Virus record (IMG/VR): IMGVR_UViG_3300030328_004671 | Coordinates: 1-27,153 of that record | Source: a virus | Direction: 5' to 3' (one strand) | DNA length: 27,153 bases | In this document: one piece after another, positions 3,515-11,138 of the stretch | Layout of the letters: every line of letters begins with the position of its first letter | Position numbering within the stretch: position 1 is the stretch's first letter | The notes under the pieces: model-generated | Databases searched by the model: none | What the model was told of the DNA's origin: nothing | Seen by the model: the letters and a program-made list of their open reading frames with translations, nothing else | Made by a program: the position numbers and the translations under genes

Positions 3515-4237
3515 ATGCCTTTACCAAAAATTAATACTCCAACCTATGAGTTAGTATTGCCTTCTACTGGAAAAAAGATTAAATATCGACCATTTTTAGT
3601 AAGAGAAGAAAAGATTCTTATTATGGCATTGGAGACTGAAGATATGAAACAGATTACTAATGCTGTTGTACAAATATTAAATGAATGTATTTTAACAAAG
3701 GGAGTAGATGTAAGTAAACTTGCTACTTTTGATATTGAATATTTATTTTTAAATGTTCGTGCAAAATCTGTTGGTGAAACTGTTGATGTAAATATAACTT
3801 GTCCTGATGATAATGAAACATCTGTTGAAATGCAGATCAATATTGATTCTATTAAAGTGCAAAAGACTAGAGGACATAAGAATACTATTAAAATAGATGA
3901 TCAATATTCTATGAAACTTAAGTATCCAGCACTTGATGAATTTATTAATAGTAATTTTGACGTTGAAAATGAGACAACTGATGTTACTAAATCACTTAGT
4001 ATGATTAGTTCATGTATTGAAATGATTTATGATGATGAAGAAAGTTGGGATGCTGCTGATTCTACTAAAGAAGAATTAGAAGAATTTATTGAACAATTAA
4101 ATAGTAAACAATTCAAACAGTTAGAGAAATTTTTCTCTACAATGCCAAAATTATCACATAAAATAAAAGTAACAAATCCTAAAACAGGAGTTGAATCTGA
4201 AGTAGTATTGGAGGGATTAGCAAGTTTTTTCACTTAA
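3515..4237 (+). CDS. 26: Baseplate hub subunit gp26-like protein
   Basis: This 240-aa protein matches the gp26 / T4_baseplate family (T4 gp26 is about 208 aa). The diagnostic N-terminal pattern is present: PLPKINTPTYELVLPSTGKK followed by KYRPFLVREEKILIMALETE. Next comes a domain with DVNITCPDDNE and LKYPALDEFI, and then an acidic helical C-terminus (DDEESWDAADSTKEELEEFI). gp26 takes part in assembly of the central hub. The gene is followed after two bases by the gp51 gene, the same adjacency as in T4. No strong Shine-Dalgarno sequence is visible. A late-like box precedes it. Confidence 0.88.
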   Translation: MPLPKINTPTYELVLPSTGKKIKYRPFLVREEKILIMALETEDMKQITNAVVQILNECILTKGVDVSKLATFDIEYLFLNVRAKSVGETVDVNITCPDDNETSVEMQINIDSIKVQKTRGHKNTIKIDDQYSMKLKYPALDEFINSNFDVENETTDVTKSLSMISSCIEMIYDDEESWDAADSTKEELEEFIEQLNSKQFKQLEKFFSTMPKLSHKIKVTNPKTGVESEVVLEGLASFFT

Positions 4238-4239
4238 GT

Positions 4240-4419
4240 ATGGCTCATACTAGTCTTGAGTCATACTATAAGGTTAATTTTGCCTTGATGCAACACCATA
4301 AATACTCATTAACAGAGCTAGATAATATGATGCCTTGGGAAAGGGAAGTTTATGTGACTTTATTACAACAATATATTGAAGAAGAAAACCTAAAACAGCA
4401 ACAACAGAGTGGCGTTTAA
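4240..4419 (+). CDS. 51: Baseplate hub assembly catalyst gp51 (59 aa)
   Basis: A short open frame starts with ATG at 4240, two bases after the gp26 stop, and ends TAA at 4417-4419. The product begins MAHTSLESYYKVNFALMQHH and contains PWEREVYVTLLQQYIEEENL, the recognisable core of gp51. In T4, gp51 acts catalytically in baseplate hub formation and is itself small. The tail is Gln-rich. The GTG start of the next gene lies inside this gene in another frame, giving an 11-nt overlap and probable coupling. The gp26 neighbourhood strongly supports the call. The gene is easily missed because of its size. Confidence 0.88.
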   Translation: MAHTSLESYYKVNFALMQHHKYSLTELDNMMPWEREVYVTLLQQYIEEENLKQQQQSGV

Positions 4420-5851
4420 TTCTTATTTAAAACCAGAATCTACATCGAAACCAAAATTGGGGAAGACATCAGTTTCTTCTTCTATATTTTCTGGTGGAAC
4501 TAAACTTAATGTTACTCCTAAATTTACTTTTGGATCTGTTGCTAGATCAATTGGATCATCTCAGGAAATAACTAAACTTGATCCTATAGAAGTTCCTCAA
4601 AAAGGACCTGATCTTGGCATTAGTAAAATTCATGCTACTATTAGTAAACTTACTGCACATGTAAGAAAATCTTTAGGTAGAATAATTAAATTAGAAAAAA
4701 GAGTAGATGTTAATGCAAAGAAGATTACTCTTTTAAAAAACGTATTAGAAGCAAAAGATAGTTTTGGTGGAAAAGAAGATCCATTAATAGAAACTAATAG
4801 GATTCTTGTAGAGATACAAAGTCAATTGGCAATAGATTTTGCATCTAGAATTGCTGCAAAAGAGGATGATCTATCGGATGCTAAAGTAGGTAAAGAAAAG
4901 AAAAAAAGAAATCTTGCAGAAAAATCTATAGAGGGTATAAAAAGTGTAGCAAAAGGTATTGTTAGTACAGTTGATGCGGTATTTACTCCAGTAAAAGGTT
5001 TTTTTGAAAAAATTAAAGAGTTTGTTCTTGTTGTATCTGCTGGTATTTTAGCAAATGAATCTTTTGAATGGTTAAAAGATCCTAATAATCAACAAAGTTT
5101 AATTAATGTTTTAACATTTATAGCATCACAATGGAAATGGATTGTTGGTATAGTTGCTGGAGTTATTGTTTTTAAAGTTATACGTAAGATAGTAAAAATA
5201 GTAAAAGGAATTTGGAAAATTCTTAAATTCTTAAATAAAGTTAGAAAGGGTATAGGGTCAATATTTAAACATGGGTTAAAAAGAGCTGGAAAACGTGCAG
5301 CACTTAAAGTTGGTGGAAAAGTAGGAGCAAAGACTGGTGCAAAATTATTAGGAAAAAGTGCTCTTAAAAAAATTCCTCTTGTTGGTTTAGGTGCAGCATT
5401 ATTTTTTGCTGGACAAAGAGCATTATCAGGAGATCTTGCTGGTGCTGGTCTTGAATTGGCATCGGGTGCAGCATCTACAATTCCTGGTGTTGGAACTGCA
5501 GCATCTGTTGGTATTGATGTTGCTTTAGCAGCTAGAGATATTAAGAATGCAGGTAATGAAGATAAAGGTCAAGGTGGATCTAAAAATAGAAGACCTGGAT
5601 CTAGATCTTATATTCCTAAGAGAAATGAGAAACAATTATCGGATAATACTCAGAAGATGATTAAATCAATATCAAATTCTTCTTCTGATGATTTAAATAT
5701 AATTGATATTGATATTCCTACAATTCAATCACCACCACCTGAAATTAAAACACCATCAGCAGGAAAACCCAATCCTGTTATTAAGGTTTCTTCTTTTAAT
5801 ATGATGAATGAATACATGATAAAAACACCAGAGTTGCATGGTATAGTATAG
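4409..5851 (+). CDS. Coiled-coil and hydrophobic tail protein, candidate tape measure or hub protein (480 aa)
   Basis: No named family is certain. The start is a GTG (product MAFNSYLKPE) overlapping gp51 by 11 nt. Visible parts are a Ser/Lys-rich N-terminus, a likely coiled coil (about residues 70-115), a hydrophobic/amphipathic stretch from about 195 to 275 (KEFVLVVSAGILANE; WIVGIVAGVIVFKVI), a Lys/Gly/Ala-rich basic region (275-320), a second hydrophobic Gly/Ala-rich region (322-375), and a polar tail. Helical, membrane-prone tail proteins of this type fit a tape measure or a hub-associated factor. In T4 the genes around this position are 27, 28 and 29, and no gp29 homologue is otherwise visible. 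It shares a motif with the next gene. The function is inferred. Confidence 0.55.
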   Translation: MAFNSYLKPESTSKPKLGKTSVSSSIFSGGTKLNVTPKFTFGSVARSIGSSQEITKLDPIEVPQKGPDLGISKIHATISKLTAHVRKSLGRIIKLEKRVDVNAKKITLLKNVLEAKDSFGGKEDPLIETNRILVEIQSQLAIDFASRIAAKEDDLSDAKVGKEKKKRNLAEKSIEGIKSVAKGIVSTVDAVFTPVKGFFEKIKEFVLVVSAGILANESFEWLKDPNNQQSLINVLTFIASQWKWIVGIVAGVIVFKVIRKIVKIVKGIWKILKFLNKVRKGIGSIFKHGLKRAGKRAALKVGGKVGAKTGAKLLGKSALKKIPLVGLGAALFFAGQRALSGDLAGAGLELASGAASTIPGVGTAASVGIDVALAARDIKNAGNEDKGQGGSKNRRPGSRSYIPKRNEKQLSDNTQKMIKSISNSSSDDLNIIDIDIPTIQSPPPEIKTPSAGKPNPVIKVSSFNMMNEYMIKTPELHGIV

Positions 5852-5855
5852 AATT

Positions 5856-7130
5856 ATGGCAGTTATTAAAGTACAAGAAAAACAAGTAAAGCAACTTAGA
5901 ATAAATGTAACTAATATTAATAGTTTTCTTATTGATAGTAATAAAAAATTGGCAAAATTAAGAAAACAAAAAGAATTAAATAATCAGAGATTAGAAGAGA
6001 AAGAGAAACAAAAAAAAGAAGAAGCAAATTTAGAAGCAGCTAATAAAAATACTGAAGGTGGATCTCTAAAAAAGAATATTATGAAATCTTCTTTAAGTTT
6101 ATTTGATAAAGCTAAAGAGTTTTTTGGACTTTTACTTACAGGAATAATTGTTAATGAGTTACCAAATATTGTAGATGGTATTAGTACATTTATGGATAAT
6201 AATGCAGGTTGGATTAGTGGTATTGGAACATTTTTGATGAGTATTGTAAAGGTTGCATCTGGATTAATTAATTTATTTAAGAAGGATAAACCTGAGATAG
6301 ATTCTTCAGTAAAAGAAGGAAATGCAGCACTTAAAGAATTAACTACTGAATCTTCTGTATTAGATTCTATGGATGAATACCTTAAGAATGAAACTAAAGA
6401 ATCTGAGGATGAAATGTCTGAAGACAGTGAAAGTGATAATAAAGAGAATAGTACTTCTGAAACTGAGAGTCAGAATACTCCACCAAAAAACGATTGGGCA
6501 AAAGAGTTAACAAACGAAAAACAATCTGGAATTCAAAATGAGAAAAAAGAAAATCCTGAAGGTAAGGGTGGTGGTGGAGAAAAACCAATTGTTGGTCGTG
6601 TAGGATCTACAGGATTATCAACAGGTCCTCATGTTCATATTGAGAGTGGTGATGGATTTGATGGTCGGGGAAAAGAAATTCCCGAACATATTGTAAATAA
6701 TGTACTTATTAATGGAAAATCTATTGATGAATATGAACTTACTTCAAAACCAGGACCAAGAAATCATCCAGTAACGGGTGAAGTAAGTGAGCATATGGGA
6801 TACGATTATGCTGCTCCTTTAGGATCTGCTATTACATTGTCTGGTGGATTAAAAGTCGTGGAATATTCTCCTGGAGAAAATAATGGGTATGGAAATCTTT
6901 TAGTTATACAAGATTCTTTTGGAAAATTATATAGTCTTTCACATTTGCAAAGTGGACCACAAAAAACTAAAAAAGTTAAATTAGATGATAAGAATTTAAT
7001 TCGTGGTAAAGGTGGAAGAGATTTATCTTTGTTGACAAATAGTACTGGTAGAAAATCTAGAACTGTTATTATTGCAACTCAAAAGGTCGAGACAATGGTT
7101 CCATATCCACAATATATTCCAGTAGGGTAA
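5856..7130 (+). CDS. Tail protein with a C-terminal, circularly permuted M23 (LytM-type) peptidase domain (424 aa)
   Basis: Residues 1-62 form a Lys/Glu/Gln-rich coiled coil. Residues 82-140 are hydrophobic, with LFDKAKEFFGLLLTGIIVNE related to the preceding protein. Residues 150-240 are an acidic, low-complexity linker. The C-terminal domain carries M23 metallopeptidase motifs in an unusual order: GSTGLSTGPHVHIE (His259, His261), then NHPVTGEVSEHMGYDYAAPL (His313, Asp317), then KLYSLSHLQSG (His363). In normal LytM-type enzymes the HxH motif comes last. All five expected residues are present, so cleavage of peptidoglycan peptide cross-links is plausible, perhaps during DNA injection. The gene lies directly upstream of the gp27- and gp5-like hub genes. 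Activity and mechanism are inferred. Confidence 0.72.
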   Translation: MAVIKVQEKQVKQLRINVTNINSFLIDSNKKLAKLRKQKELNNQRLEEKEKQKKEEANLEAANKNTEGGSLKKNIMKSSLSLFDKAKEFFGLLLTGIIVNELPNIVDGISTFMDNNAGWISGIGTFLMSIVKVASGLINLFKKDKPEIDSSVKEGNAALKELTTESSVLDSMDEYLKNETKESEDEMSEDSESDNKENSTSETESQNTPPKNDWAKELTNEKQSGIQNEKKENPEGKGGGGEKPIVGRVGSTGLSTGPHVHIESGDGFDGRGKEIPEHIVNNVLINGKSIDEYELTSKPGPRNHPVTGEVSEHMGYDYAAPLGSAITLSGGLKVVEYSPGENNGYGNLLVIQDSFGKLYSLSHLQSGPQKTKKVKLDDKNLIRGKGGRDLSLLTNSTGRKSRTVIIATQKVETMVPYPQYIPVG

Positions 7131-7136
7131 AGAAAT

Positions 7137-8411
7137 ATGAGTGCATCAAGAGCTTCACTATATACTCATTTAGTAATTGATAAGGACGGTAAAAGAGTTC
7201 CTCTTCAAGGAAAAACTGTTGAGTTTGAATATTTTGAGAGTTTGTATTCTCCAGTAATTACTGCAAATTTGGTTTATAGTGATGCTGGTGGATCAGTTCC
7301 TGCAGAAAAAGATCAAGATTCTGCTGGTAGACTTGGTAGTATTAAAGATTCATTACCTATTACTGGATATGAAGATTTAGAAGTAGTAATTTCTAATGAT
7401 TCTGGAGAATTAAATTTTAAGAAAAACCCCTTTAGAGTTAATGGTGCTCCAATTCTTGGTCAAGAATCTAATCGTCAAACAGTTCTTTTACAATTAACTT
7501 CAGTTACTGCAGAAGAAAATTTACAACCTAAAGATCCATGTAAAAAGTATATGGGTAGAATAAGTGATACTGTTGATAAAATATTAAAAGATGAACTTAA
7601 TATAAGTGAAGATAAAATTAAAATTGATAGTACAAGAAACTCATATAATTTTGTAACAAAGGGAAGAGGTGGATTAGATTTAATAAATGATTTGTGTAGA
7701 AAATCTATACCTGATCAGGGTGATCCTGGATATTTTTTCTATGAAACTCAAGATGGTTTTAATTTTAAATCAATAGATAATCTTATTAGTCAAGAACCAG
7801 TACAAACTTATAATTATAATGGTATTTTGATTGCAAATTTAGATAATAATCAAAATGATTTTAGAATTTTACTAGAACCTTCTATACAAAAAGATCAAAA
7901 TGTATTGAAAGCATTGGAGTCAGGAACTTATTATAGTCGTAATATATTCTTTGATCCTAGAACTTTTGCTTATGATGAATTAACTTTTAATTTAAAAGAT
8001 GATGGTGTTAAAAAAACACTTGGAAAAATTCCACCATTTGTAGATAAAGTAGAAACATATACTAAAACAAATTGTCATGTATTGGATGTTGGTAGTTTAG
8101 ATCCCTATGTTAGTATAGGTATTAATAATGATCCTAAAGAATGGCAAGCAAAATCTATAATGAGGTATAATCTTCTTCATTCTCAGATTATGCATATACA
8201 AGTTCCATGTAATGTAAAATTAAAAGCTGGTAATATTATTAGATGTGAATTTGAAAAACAAAGTGATGAAAAAGAATTGGGTTCAATAGATCAGCAACAA
8301 AGTGGAAATTATTTAATATTACATCTTTGTCATCATTTTGATACTAAAAATTCATTTACATCTTTAACTGTTGTTCGTGATACTTACGGTCTATATACTA
8401 ATAAAAAATAA
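7137..8411 (+). CDS. 27: Baseplate hub subunit gp27-like protein
   Basis: This 424-aa protein is close in size to T4 gp27 (about 391 aa), which forms the trimeric central hub ring and holds gp5. The N-terminal part shows KTVEFEYFESLYSPVITANL followed by VYSDAGG. The middle contains GYFFYETQDGFNFKSIDNLI, as in hub proteins of the gp27/VgrG/gpD group. The C-terminal part contains VKLKAGNIIRCEFE and LILHLCHHFDTKNSFTSLTV, resembling the end of the second barrel domain. The ATG follows the previous stop by 6 nt, and the stop overlaps the ATG of the next gene by one base (TAATG). That coupling to an OB-fold gp5-like gene supports the hub role. Confidence 0.8.
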   Translation: MSASRASLYTHLVIDKDGKRVPLQGKTVEFEYFESLYSPVITANLVYSDAGGSVPAEKDQDSAGRLGSIKDSLPITGYEDLEVVISNDSGELNFKKNPFRVNGAPILGQESNRQTVLLQLTSVTAEENLQPKDPCKKYMGRISDTVDKILKDELNISEDKIKIDSTRNSYNFVTKGRGGLDLINDLCRKSIPDQGDPGYFFYETQDGFNFKSIDNLISQEPVQTYNYNGILIANLDNNQNDFRILLEPSIQKDQNVLKALESGTYYSRNIFFDPRTFAYDELTFNLKDDGVKKTLGKIPPFVDKVETYTKTNCHVLDVGSLDPYVSIGINNDPKEWQAKSIMRYNLLHSQIMHIQVPCNVKLKAGNIIRCEFEKQSDEKELGSIDQQQSGNYLILHLCHHFDTKNSFTSLTVVRDTYGLYTNKK

Positions 8412-9271
8412 TGTCTAACCAAGCTCCTTCATTTTTTGATAAAGCACCAGAAGCATGGACTGGAAAAGTTGTATCAATAGCTTCTCAAAAAGAGCAGGTA
8501 TCTGGTTTTGGTTGGGGTACCAGATATAAGGTTCGTATTTTTGGACAATATTCTGAGAATGATAATATTGATGATAAGGATGTTCATACTGCAACTGTAA
8601 TGATGTCTCCTACTGATGGGAGTGGTTCTGCTGGTAGGATGAGAACAGTTAAAATTACTCAAGGTGATATTGTTTATGGTGTTTTCATGGCACCTGATCA
8701 AGGGTTTCCTGTTATTCAGGGGGTTTTGGGTCAAACTAGAGATAAAGTTAATAGTGGTGGTAAATTTGGATCAGAGTCTGGTTTTACTGAAAGTAAAAAA
8801 CCAGGGTTAACTGGAAGACAAGAATCTAATGAGCAGAATGGGGTAACTATACCTGGAATACTTAATTGTAAGGATAATGTTGGTGGTGGAGTTGGTAAGT
8901 CTTCTCCTAAAGAGGCATTTCAAAAAATGGGATTAGATGCAAATCTACCATCTGAATTGGGTTCTATTTCTAAACCAGATTCATCTAAAACTAATAAAAA
9001 TATTCTTAAACCAGATAGTTATGTTAATAAACCAACTAATGAATTGCAAGTTGGTGAATCAAATGATGAAACAATTAGAGACTCACTTCAAGAAGAAGAG
9101 AATGTTAGAGCATGGAATGCTGGTGAAACACCAAGAGAAGTTAATGTTAATCTAGTAGATGGTGGTGGATCTGAACCTAATTATGGAACTCCAGAATGGG
9201 ATGAATGGAATAGGAAAGAAAGTGAGTATGTTAGAAATAATCCAGATTCATCTGGTTTTACATTACAGTAA
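8411..9271 (+). CDS. 5: gp5-type hub protein, OB-fold domain without lysozyme
   Basis: The first 110 or so residues match the gp5 N-terminal OB-fold: TGKVVSIASQKEQVSGFGWG, then TRYKVRIFGQYSEND, then KITQGDIVYGVFMAPDQGFP and VIQGVLGQTRDK. In T4, gp5 (575 aa) also carries a lysozyme domain and a beta-helix needle. This protein stops at 286 aa. After the OB domain it has only a polar Gly/Ser/Asn/Lys-rich region, with no lysozyme catalytic segment and no beta-helix repeats. It overlaps gp27 by one base. It probably binds the gp27 ring and acts in the hub together with a separately encoded needle. The OB assignment is firm. The symbol 5 refers only to the N-terminal domain homology. Confidence 0.78.
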   Translation: MSNQAPSFFDKAPEAWTGKVVSIASQKEQVSGFGWGTRYKVRIFGQYSENDNIDDKDVHTATVMMSPTDGSGSAGRMRTVKITQGDIVYGVFMAPDQGFPVIQGVLGQTRDKVNSGGKFGSESGFTESKKPGLTGRQESNEQNGVTIPGILNCKDNVGGGVGKSSPKEAFQKMGLDANLPSELGSISKPDSSKTNKNILKPDSYVNKPTNELQVGESNDETIRDSLQEEENVRAWNAGETPREVNVNLVDGGGSEPNYGTPEWDEWNRKESEYVRNNPDSSGFTLQ

Positions 9272-9302: not shown

Positions 9303-11138
9303 ATGGTATTAAAGATTAACGAAACTGTAGAATTATTAAAAGGTGTTACTCCACCTTCAAAAATTCCTTCACCTAAACAGGTTGAGTATTTTTCTCAGCT
9401 TATAAAAGACAATCCCCAAGATCTAGTTAATAAAGGTATAATTGATAAGGTTAAGAAACAATGGCCTTCTCAATTAGGATCTGTTTTACCTAGTACACCA
9501 GAATCTATTGCTAATTTAGGAAAATCTGATCTTAAATCTTTTCAACAAAGAATGGGTCAGTATAAAAAACATACTGAACCATGTTTACCTTCTGCTATTG
9601 ATACTATTGGTAATACTATTATATTTGCAGATCCTTGTAAAGATAATTTTTTTGCTAAGTCGGAAGCATATTTAGAGAATTTTTTTAATAATATTACTAA
9701 AACTTCTAGTTTTGCTATGGATCTTCCTGGTGAAATAAAGGGTGTGACAAAGCAGTTAGGATCTGCTTCACAATTACTTGTTGGAAAAATTGGTAATAAA
9801 CTTACTGATGAAATGATTAAATTTTCTCAGCAGGGTATGACAAATGTAGCAGATAGAATTTTTAGTAATCCCATTTATGCAAATAATCGACCTGCTGCAC
9901 TAGCAAAAGTTATTCAAGAACAGACTGCTCTTGTTGGTCCAATTAGTAATATGTTTGATTCTACCAGTTGTTTAACTACAAAAGTTGGAGATGCTTTACA
10001 AGATTCTATAAGTGATATGTTAGTTGGAATGGCAAAAAATGTACTGAACCCTAGTACTTGTGCTGTTCAACAAATGATAGGTGGCATTACAAATAAGATT
10101 GGATCTGAGATTGATGATGCAGTAACACCATTTACTGCTCCATTAGAAAAAGCTTTTGGAATTGCATTTAATGTTAAAGAAGTTGCTATGGGTGGAATTC
10201 AATTAGCACGTAAAACTGAAAATCTTTTTAATTGTGGGCAAAAACCTAAATGTCCTGCTAGTTCTAAATATAAAATTGGTTCTGGCACACAAAGGTCTAA
10301 GAGTCAGAATGAACAGCAAGGTCTTTTAGATAAAGCATTTAATGCTGCACAAACTGCTTCAAGTTTAGTTGATCAGGCACAAGGTGCTATTCAAGGAGTT
10401 GGCACTCAATTAAGTAATTTTGAAAAAGAATATGGACAATGGGAAATATTTGGATCTAAAATTAATGAGGCAGCAGATCATGGTATTGGTCAAGATTGTT
10501 ATACTGGAAATATTTTTAAATGTGGAGCACCTAAGGTAGAATTTTTTGGTGGAGATGGGATTGGTGGAGCAGGAAAAGTTCTTCTTGGTAATTTTATAGA
10601 TAAAATTGATCCTGAAGATATCTATGGGACTATTAAAAAAACTGGTGGTATTCTTGGTGTAAAGATGAGTGATCGTGGGAATGGATATACTGAAGAACCG
10701 ATGATAGCATTTTCTGATAATTGTAATCAGGGATATGGTGCTTATGGAAAAGCAGTTATTGATAAAAATATGAATTCTCCAACTTATGGACAAATTATAG
10801 ATATTGTAATTACAGGTACTGGTATTAATTATCCAGTAGAAGAAGAAAAACCTTTATATATTTCAAATGTGATTATTGAAAATCCTGGTAATGATTATTC
10901 TGATGATGATGTGATTGATGATCCTAATTTAGAATTAGTAATTACTGACGGACAAGTTACTGGTGTTAATATATTAGCACAAGAACCATTTGAAATATTA
11001 CCTTCAATTGATATTATTAGTTCTAGTGGTTATGGTGCAGTCATTCTTCCAGTAATGAGTGATGTGAAGATTACTACAGAAGCAGTTCTTAATACTTCTA
11101 TTGACTGTATTGGAAATTATACTAAAAGTGGAGAATAG
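9303..11138 (+). CDS. Virion structural protein with Cys residues and GxGY-type C-terminal modules (611 aa)
   Basis: The first 350 or so residues are mainly helical and Gln/Ala/Ser/Lys-rich. The region from about 395 onward is beta-rich: CYTGNIFKCGAPKVEFFGGD, then GVKMSDRGNGYTEEPMIAFS, then DNCNQGYGAYGKAVID and IVITGTGINYP. This pattern is recurrent in marine T4-like phage virion proteins. Ten cysteines are present, several in CxxxxxxxC or CxxxxC spacings, which could allow metal binding or disulfides in the mature particle. The gene sits between the OB hub protein and the beta-helix needle candidate, so a baseplate or hub-peripheral role is likely. I do not recognise a T4 counterpart. An AAGGAGG site supports the ATG at 9303, although the 13-nt spacing is long. 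Confidence 0.75.
   Translation: MVLKINETVELLKGVTPPSKIPSPKQVEYFSQLIKDNPQDLVNKGIIDKVKKQWPSQLGSVLPSTPESIANLGKSDLKSFQQRMGQYKKHTEPCLPSAIDTIGNTIIFADPCKDNFFAKSEAYLENFFNNITKTSSFAMDLPGEIKGVTKQLGSASQLLVGKIGNKLTDEMIKFSQQGMTNVADRIFSNPIYANNRPAALAKVIQEQTALVGPISNMFDSTSCLTTKVGDALQDSISDMLVGMAKNVLNPSTCAVQQMIGGITNKIGSEIDDAVTPFTAPLEKAFGIAFNVKEVAMGGIQLARKTENLFNCGQKPKCPASSKYKIGSGTQRSKSQNEQQGLLDKAFNAAQTASSLVDQAQGAIQGVGTQLSNFEKEYGQWEIFGSKINEAADHGIGQDCYTGNIFKCGAPKVEFFGGDGIGGAGKVLLGNFIDKIDPEDIYGTIKKTGGILGVKMSDRGNGYTEEPMIAFSDNCNQGYGAYGKAVIDKNMNSPTYGQIIDIVITGTGINYPVEEEKPLYISNVIIENPGNDYSDDDVIDDPNLELVITDGQVTGVNILAQEPFEILPSIDIISSSGYGAVILPVMSDVKITTEAVLNTSIDCIGNYTKSGE

Follow-up and report, generated by a model that had tools for sequence, protein, structure and literature searches.

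A putative circularly permuted M23 peptidase domain in a tail protein of a Kyanoviridae-like marine phage, with relatives in diverse phage tails

A variable tail gene beside the baseplate hub

We analysed a 27,153-nucleotide stretch (the window) of a 33,352-base IMG/VR record that comes from a T4-like marine phage. Marine virus AG-345-L05, a member of Kyanoviridae by classification, shares 81% identity with it in gp26, and on sequence grounds the window phage is a Kyanoviridae-like T4-type marine phage. The genes considered here run in the order gp26, A, B, a tail protein at the gp27 position and a gp5-like hub in two genes:

3515–4237, plus strand: gp26-like baseplate hub protein (PF12322, E = 2.3 × 10−75), the synteny anchor
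4409–5851, plus strand: gene A, 480 amino acids (aa), a paralogue of B by hhalign, without a hydrolase domain by Pfam
5856–7130, plus strand: tail gene B, 424 aa, with the predicted permuted M23 domain (open reading frame (ORF), Pfam, synteny)
7137–8411, plus strand: tail protein at the gp27 (hub) position (PHROG 350)
8411–9271, plus strand: N-terminal part of the gp5-like hub (PHROG 1922, positions 20–156), no lysozyme domain found
9303–11138, plus strand: the rest of the gp5-like hub as a second gene (PHROG 1922, positions 205–654), no lysozyme domain found

B is syntenic with a variable Kyanoviridae gene located between gp26/gp51 and the gp27-like gene. Genes A and B are paralogous (hhalign probability 97.9, E = 6 × 10−13 over 139 columns), sharing a charged coiled-coil-like stretch and an amphipathic segment, and the two may be the tape-measure-like proteins of Kyanoviridae. 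The division of the gp5-like hub protein into two genes apparently occurs in AG-345-L05 too (L004, 6772–7425 and 7468–9339). Further upstream, an ORF at 2274–2711 encodes a TnsA-like endonuclease domain (PF08722, E = 1.3 × 10−23) where relatives have the head completion protein gp4.

By Pfam, no Phage_lysozyme match was found in the window ORFs tested, the gp5-like genes included, and no wall hydrolase besides B among those same ORFs (a set without a 1942-aa ORF that extends past the window). A second M23 domain was not found within the 33-kb record either. For the window, then, B does carry the only visible wall-degrading module, as had been proposed from the sequence.

The M23 segments of B stand in permuted order

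M23 peptidases present their active-site segments in the order HxxxD, third histidine, HxH. In the open frame of B, by contrast, GSTGLSTGPHVHIE (H259, H261) comes before EHMGYD (H313, D317), which comes before YSLSHL (H363), exactly the residues and order reported by the first-pass annotation. Because the segment order is HxH, HxxxD, His, we call B a permuted variant and not an ordinary PF01551 member. The domain boundaries proposed earlier (6577–7127) did not stand, as the permuted domain covers approximately residues 243–372 (nucleotides 6582–6971) and B divides as follows:

5856–6581, plus strand: N-terminal region, residues 1–242, fast evolving and paralogous to gene A; a charged coiled-coil-like stretch is present, as is a hydrophobic segment
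6588–6647, plus strand: C-terminal M23 segment in displaced position, IVGRVGSTGLSTGPHVHIES, which includes H259 and H261 (HxH); PF01551 positions 68–86, canonical profile columns 93–128
6648–6728, plus strand: linker, residues 265–291, between what are the C and N termini of the canonical domain; it aligns with the corresponding linkers in permuted relatives
6729–6953, plus strand: canonical N-terminal and central M23 part with GPRNHP, HxxxD (H313, D317) and YSLSHL (H363); PF01551 positions 2–55, canonical profile columns 6–85
6984–7127, plus strand: C-terminal tail, residues 377–424, outside the M23 domain; pLDDT below 50 in the model, one non-synonymous change relative to contig L001

The Pfam profile PF01551 matches B with 32 bits (E = 1.5 × 10−7; cut-off 28.7 bits) as two non-overlapping pieces in reversed order, with profile positions 2–55 at residues 312–367 and the profile's C-terminal part (positions 68–86) upstream, at residues 245–263. 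The same reversed pair appears in phmmer comparisons of B with M23 peptidases of the PDB (3slu, 6muk and 9m7n). With a canonical M23 HMM built from 59 sequences of the fetched loci, native B gives a best domain of 46.0 bits plus a second piece, and moving its front segment to the end (rotation) yields a single domain of 70.5 bits over HMM positions 3–110; the rotated single domain likewise outscores the best native domain in 30 of 30 other permuted representatives. At the level of the whole family, hhalign returns two matches for the native profile that tile canonical columns 6–85 and 93–128 in the wrong order (E = 6.9 × 10−22 and 6.8 × 10−15), and one match for the rotated profile, over columns 11–128 (E = 1.5 × 10−35). 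Homology to M23 thus extends across the whole domain, with PF01551 above its cut-off in B and the rotated profile in one piece. An assembly chimera was ruled out by the independent IMG/VR contig L001, which has the same ORF with a 99% identical domain.

A collinear family in tape-measure, internal virion and hub-like proteins

Searching 50,697 phage records with B (tblastn) recovered collinear matches in the tape-measure proteins of Acinetobacter and Moraxella phages (31% identity over ~130 residues, E = 5 × 10−8), and further members came from scanning IMG/VR and bacterial genomes. Classified by motif, all fetched loci together hold 325 permuted occurrences (overlapping copies included), corresponding to 112 distinct domain sequences and 43 representatives. 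HxH precedes HxxxD in 43 of these 43, and in none does an HxH follow within 140 residues after HxxxD.

Its carriers are phage tape-measure proteins (such as L255 and L009, and a 3007-aa Leptolyngbya protein that reads like one), T7-like internal virion proteins, VgrG/hub-like proteins and short stand-alone ORFs. In the VgrG/hub-like tail protein of L249 (2804–4339) the permuted M23 is the C-terminal domain, and in the T7-like internal virion protein of L011 (3328–6366) a FlgJ-like glucosaminidase directly precedes it; the latter protein would combine two wall hydrolases in one ejected chain. The stand-alone ORFs (225–270 aa) start with HxH and keep the same permuted order. Among cultured phages, carriers comprise the Acinetobacter and Moraxella tape-measure proteins, proteins of S-TIM54 and S-TIM66 that are virion structural proteins by annotation alone, and a ‘peptidase M23 family’ protein of S-EIVl that resembles the stand-alone ORFs. 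The permuted C terminus is sharply marked, as several members stop just past the third histidine (LLHLQAGSAR*, LLMHGSNNNLR*). P60 gp33 of Synechococcus phage P60 (L472, 2778–5780) ends in a degenerate permuted M23 whose HxxxD histidine is apparently lost. Proteins of the family are already present in databases, under the labels tape measure, internal virion protein or M23.

Predicted structure of the permuted domain

An AlphaFold2 (AF2) model of the core of B (residues 236–376, 44 alignment rows) reached a pLDDT of 84.6 and a pTM of 0.79, with both M23 parts at pLDDT ~92–96. An earlier model of residues 225–424 with 32 rows had a pLDDT of 66.9 and no significant Foldseek match in the PDB; trimming to the core and using 44 rows raised the confidence of the model, and Foldseek against the PDB was still not significant, as expected for a permutation under order-dependent aligners. 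We ran VIA-align on the PDB chains ranked by Foldseek, and the top nine were all M23 peptidases (Z 4.3–5.3, r.m.s.d. 2.7–3.4, 20–29% identity), among them lysostaphin (4qpb), 2gu1, StM23, ShyA, LytU, the gonococcal M23 and Csd1/Csd2; unrelated folds came next, at 3.8. These alignments, from aligners that depend on sequence order, span model residues ~41–135 alone, and both the partial coverage and the modest Z scores can be attributed to the HxH segment, which cannot align in sequence order. Full-domain matches were obtained in a viral structure library (TMq 0.64–0.67), to an S-TIM5 virion protein, a tape-measure fragment and the P60 internal virion protein, and the permuted order is confirmed by sequence in the S-TIM relatives and, minus the first HxxxD histidine, in P60 gp33. 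Structure prediction, put forward as a check when the domain was noticed, gave for the core a confident, compact domain whose nine best re-aligned PDB matches are M23 peptidases.

Active-site residues and the predicted third zinc ligand

B has the full set of M23 motifs, that is, HxxxD, HxH, a further histidine and the GxR context. Across the 44-row alignment, the positions of H259, H313, D317 and H363 and those of G-x-R are invariant. The second histidine of HxH is the sole active-site residue that alternates, between His and Asp: it is His in B, L011, L292, several stand-alone ORFs and the HKH, HGH and HAH forms, and Asp in the majority of the remaining members. M23 enzymes coordinate their zinc through two histidines and one aspartate of the motifs and use the first histidine of HxH to activate the water (PMC9662197); under this ligand scheme, the second histidine would be the third zinc ligand. 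Most permuted domains (for example, L009, L158 and L245–L287) read HLD in place of HxH, a histidine-to-aspartate change at that ligand. An aspartate there could still bind zinc, but some family members may be altered or inactive, given that most relatives have Asp in place of H261.

Constraint and origin

Between the window and L001, the permuted domain differs by 0 non-synonymous and 6 synonymous changes and residues 1–242 by 27 and 4, respectively (Fisher P = 9 × 10−5 for the contrast, from two sequences). In this two-sequence comparison the permuted domain is under strong purifying selection, in strong contrast to the N-terminal region.

Circular permutations usually arise by duplication followed by partial deletion. 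A tree of rotated permuted domains together with canonical ones has two permuted clades (29 and 13 rows) and leaves the window unplaced; a topology that unites the permuted rows in a single clade is not rejected (p-AU 0.82), and the tree is compatible with one origin of the permutation as well as with several.

Genes A and B across Kyanoviridae

The content of the A and B positions varies among Kyanoviridae. The B-position gene encodes a canonical M23 in S-RIM32, S-MbCM7 and S-H9-1, a phage lysozyme plus M23 in Sf-CH8 and an M23 match without the HxxxD end in S-SRM01; gene A of P-HM1 encodes a VanY, and in several Kyanoviridae Pfam recognised nothing. As the same genes carry a canonical M23, a lysozyme with M23, a VanY or nothing in relatives, the A/B pair seems to be a position beside the hub where wall hydrolases can be swapped. 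In AG-345-L05, which is closest to the window phage by gp26, B is only 306 aa long (L004, 4499–5419) and has no M23; since this closest full relative lacks it, the module is dispensable in that lineage, and we read the difference from the window as a recent gain or loss. One hydrophobic, Gly/Ala-rich motif (KKIPLVGLGAALFFAGQRALSGD...PGVGTA) is conserved but differs in location: it occupies residues ~322–378 of A in the window, belongs to B in both S-MbCM7 and S-H9-1, and is part of a single fused gene in ACG-2014i; the loci compared include L007 (3625–6291). Because this motif changes gene among relatives, modules seem to shuffle between neighbouring genes.

Discussion

The circular permutation noticed in B is borne out by the profile tiling, the rotation test, the collinear family, a compact, confidently predicted model that resembles M23 structures, and purifying selection, so that, as far as sequence and fold prediction reach, the C-terminal half of B is supported as a circularly permuted M23 (LytM/lysostaphin-type) domain. 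B is quite probably a tail- or baseplate-associated protein whose C-terminal half is a permuted M23 zinc peptidase domain serving to open the wall at entry, where zinc binding, cutting and the role in entry are what we infer; the domain is most likely a putative zinc endopeptidase that would open peptidoglycan during entry. In the arrangement we propose, the last canonical strands, which contain HxH, would be encoded first, followed by a linker of ~27 residues to the canonical N terminus, and the domain would end just past the third histidine. H313, D317 and H261 are predicted to hold the zinc, and H259 and H363 to activate the water. Contraction would drive the hub-associated B through the outer membrane, where its M23 domain would cut stem peptides or cross-links of the host peptidoglycan and let the tube pass, an activity that would stand in for the T4 tail lysozyme. 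Gene position, the A/B paralogy, the domain partners in relatives and the constraint on the domain support this mechanism, and the neighbours of B (gp26, gp27-like and gp5-like) place it, like its paralogy to A, in the tail module.

Could the domain be a non-catalytic peptidoglycan-binding or structural module instead, comparable to the degenerate LytM domains found in EnvC and NlpD? The aspartate at the third zinc ligand of most relatives and the apparent loss of the HxxxD histidine in P60 gp33 would fit, but B, L011, L292 and a number of stand-alone ORFs retain all five residues, four of the positions show no variation across the 44 rows and strong purifying selection acts on the domain, which makes this rather unlikely. 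A domain swap, in which the M23 parts of one chain stay unpacked and the site forms between neighbouring subunits of a hub or tail-tip oligomer, would also tolerate the permuted order, and B adjoins hub genes and may be oligomeric. We hold it to be quite improbable, given the pTM and pLDDT of the single-chain core, a linker that is short and alignable across the permuted family, and stand-alone ORFs of ~235 aa with the same order.

Cyanophage lysis enzymes with a canonical M23 exist (PaV-LD ORF123; PMC9096620), and B might by analogy be an endolysin and not a virion-associated lysin; its place within the baseplate hub gene cluster, its paralogy to tail gene A and the occurrence of its domain relatives in tape-measure, internal virion and hub-like proteins render this highly improbable. 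PaV-LD ORF123 was itself considered as an already tested permuted enzyme and ruled out, as its order is canonical. That the reversed order is functionless debris of a tandem duplication and deletion, or a sequencing or assembly chimera, deserves almost no credence: duplication with partial deletion is the usual route to a permutation in general, no result here favours debris, and the two independent contigs, the large collinear family and the absence of non-synonymous change in the domain (dN zero) speak against it. Conservation of the permuted domain contradicts this reading.

M23B/LytM-type enzymes (LytM, lysostaphin, ShyA, MepM; PF01551) share with B all active-site residues (GxR, HxxxD, HxH and the third histidine), are homologous by profile (E = 1.5 × 10−35 after rotation) and provide the nearest solved structures to the model, whereas B has the HxH part first. 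In Sf-CH8, S-RIM32, S-MbCM7 and S-H9-1, the gene that lies, as B does, between gp26/gp51 and the gp27-like gene encodes an M23 domain in canonical order. Conversely, the Acinetobacter Vieuvirus and Moraxella domains have the permuted order of B and 31% identity to it over ~130 residues, but are embedded in a lambda-type tape measure and have Asp as the second HxH residue; we found no description of them as permuted in the literature. Phage phi29 also has an M23 on its tail, the tail-tip endopeptidase gp13, an ordinary M23 member that opens peptidoglycan at entry (PMC9662197); it belongs to a podovirus of a Gram-positive host, and we compared it by description only. T4 gp5 has the function that we propose for B, making an opening in the wall at the baseplate hub, but is a muramidase of unrelated fold, and Pfam finds no lysozyme domain in the gp5-like genes of the window.

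Circularly permuted NlpC/P60 enzymes (YaeF, LRAT-like) offer a precedent for a permuted wall-peptidase superfamily (PMC6403190), although their cysteine peptidase fold is unrelated to M23. A review of M23 gives the family motifs and no permuted member (PMC9662197), and in the literature, which we covered in part, no description of a permuted M23, LytM or tail lysin was found, the permuted wall peptidases met being NlpC/P60 relatives. The permuted M23 is thus apparently undescribed until now. The first-pass annotation was aware of no permuted M23 described in T4-like phages; the domain is confined neither to the window phage nor to the T4-like group. On balance, we favour seeing in the permuted M23 a widespread, undescribed class of phage entry enzymes, moved among T4-, T7-, lambda- and S-TIM5-like tails and tails with VgrG-like hubs, perhaps with more than one origin and in many cases with His-Asp-Asp instead of His-Asp-His zinc ligands.

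Few wall hydrolases and antibacterial enzymes have been studied as thoroughly as the M23 peptidases; that circular permutation occurs naturally and repeatedly among them would mean that their active site accepts new termini. The permutation explains the half-matches that profile annotation returns in phage tape-measure and internal virion proteins, and the His/Asp swap at a zinc ligand is directly testable. For several aquatic and cyanobacterial phages, the permuted domain provides a candidate wall-opening enzyme.
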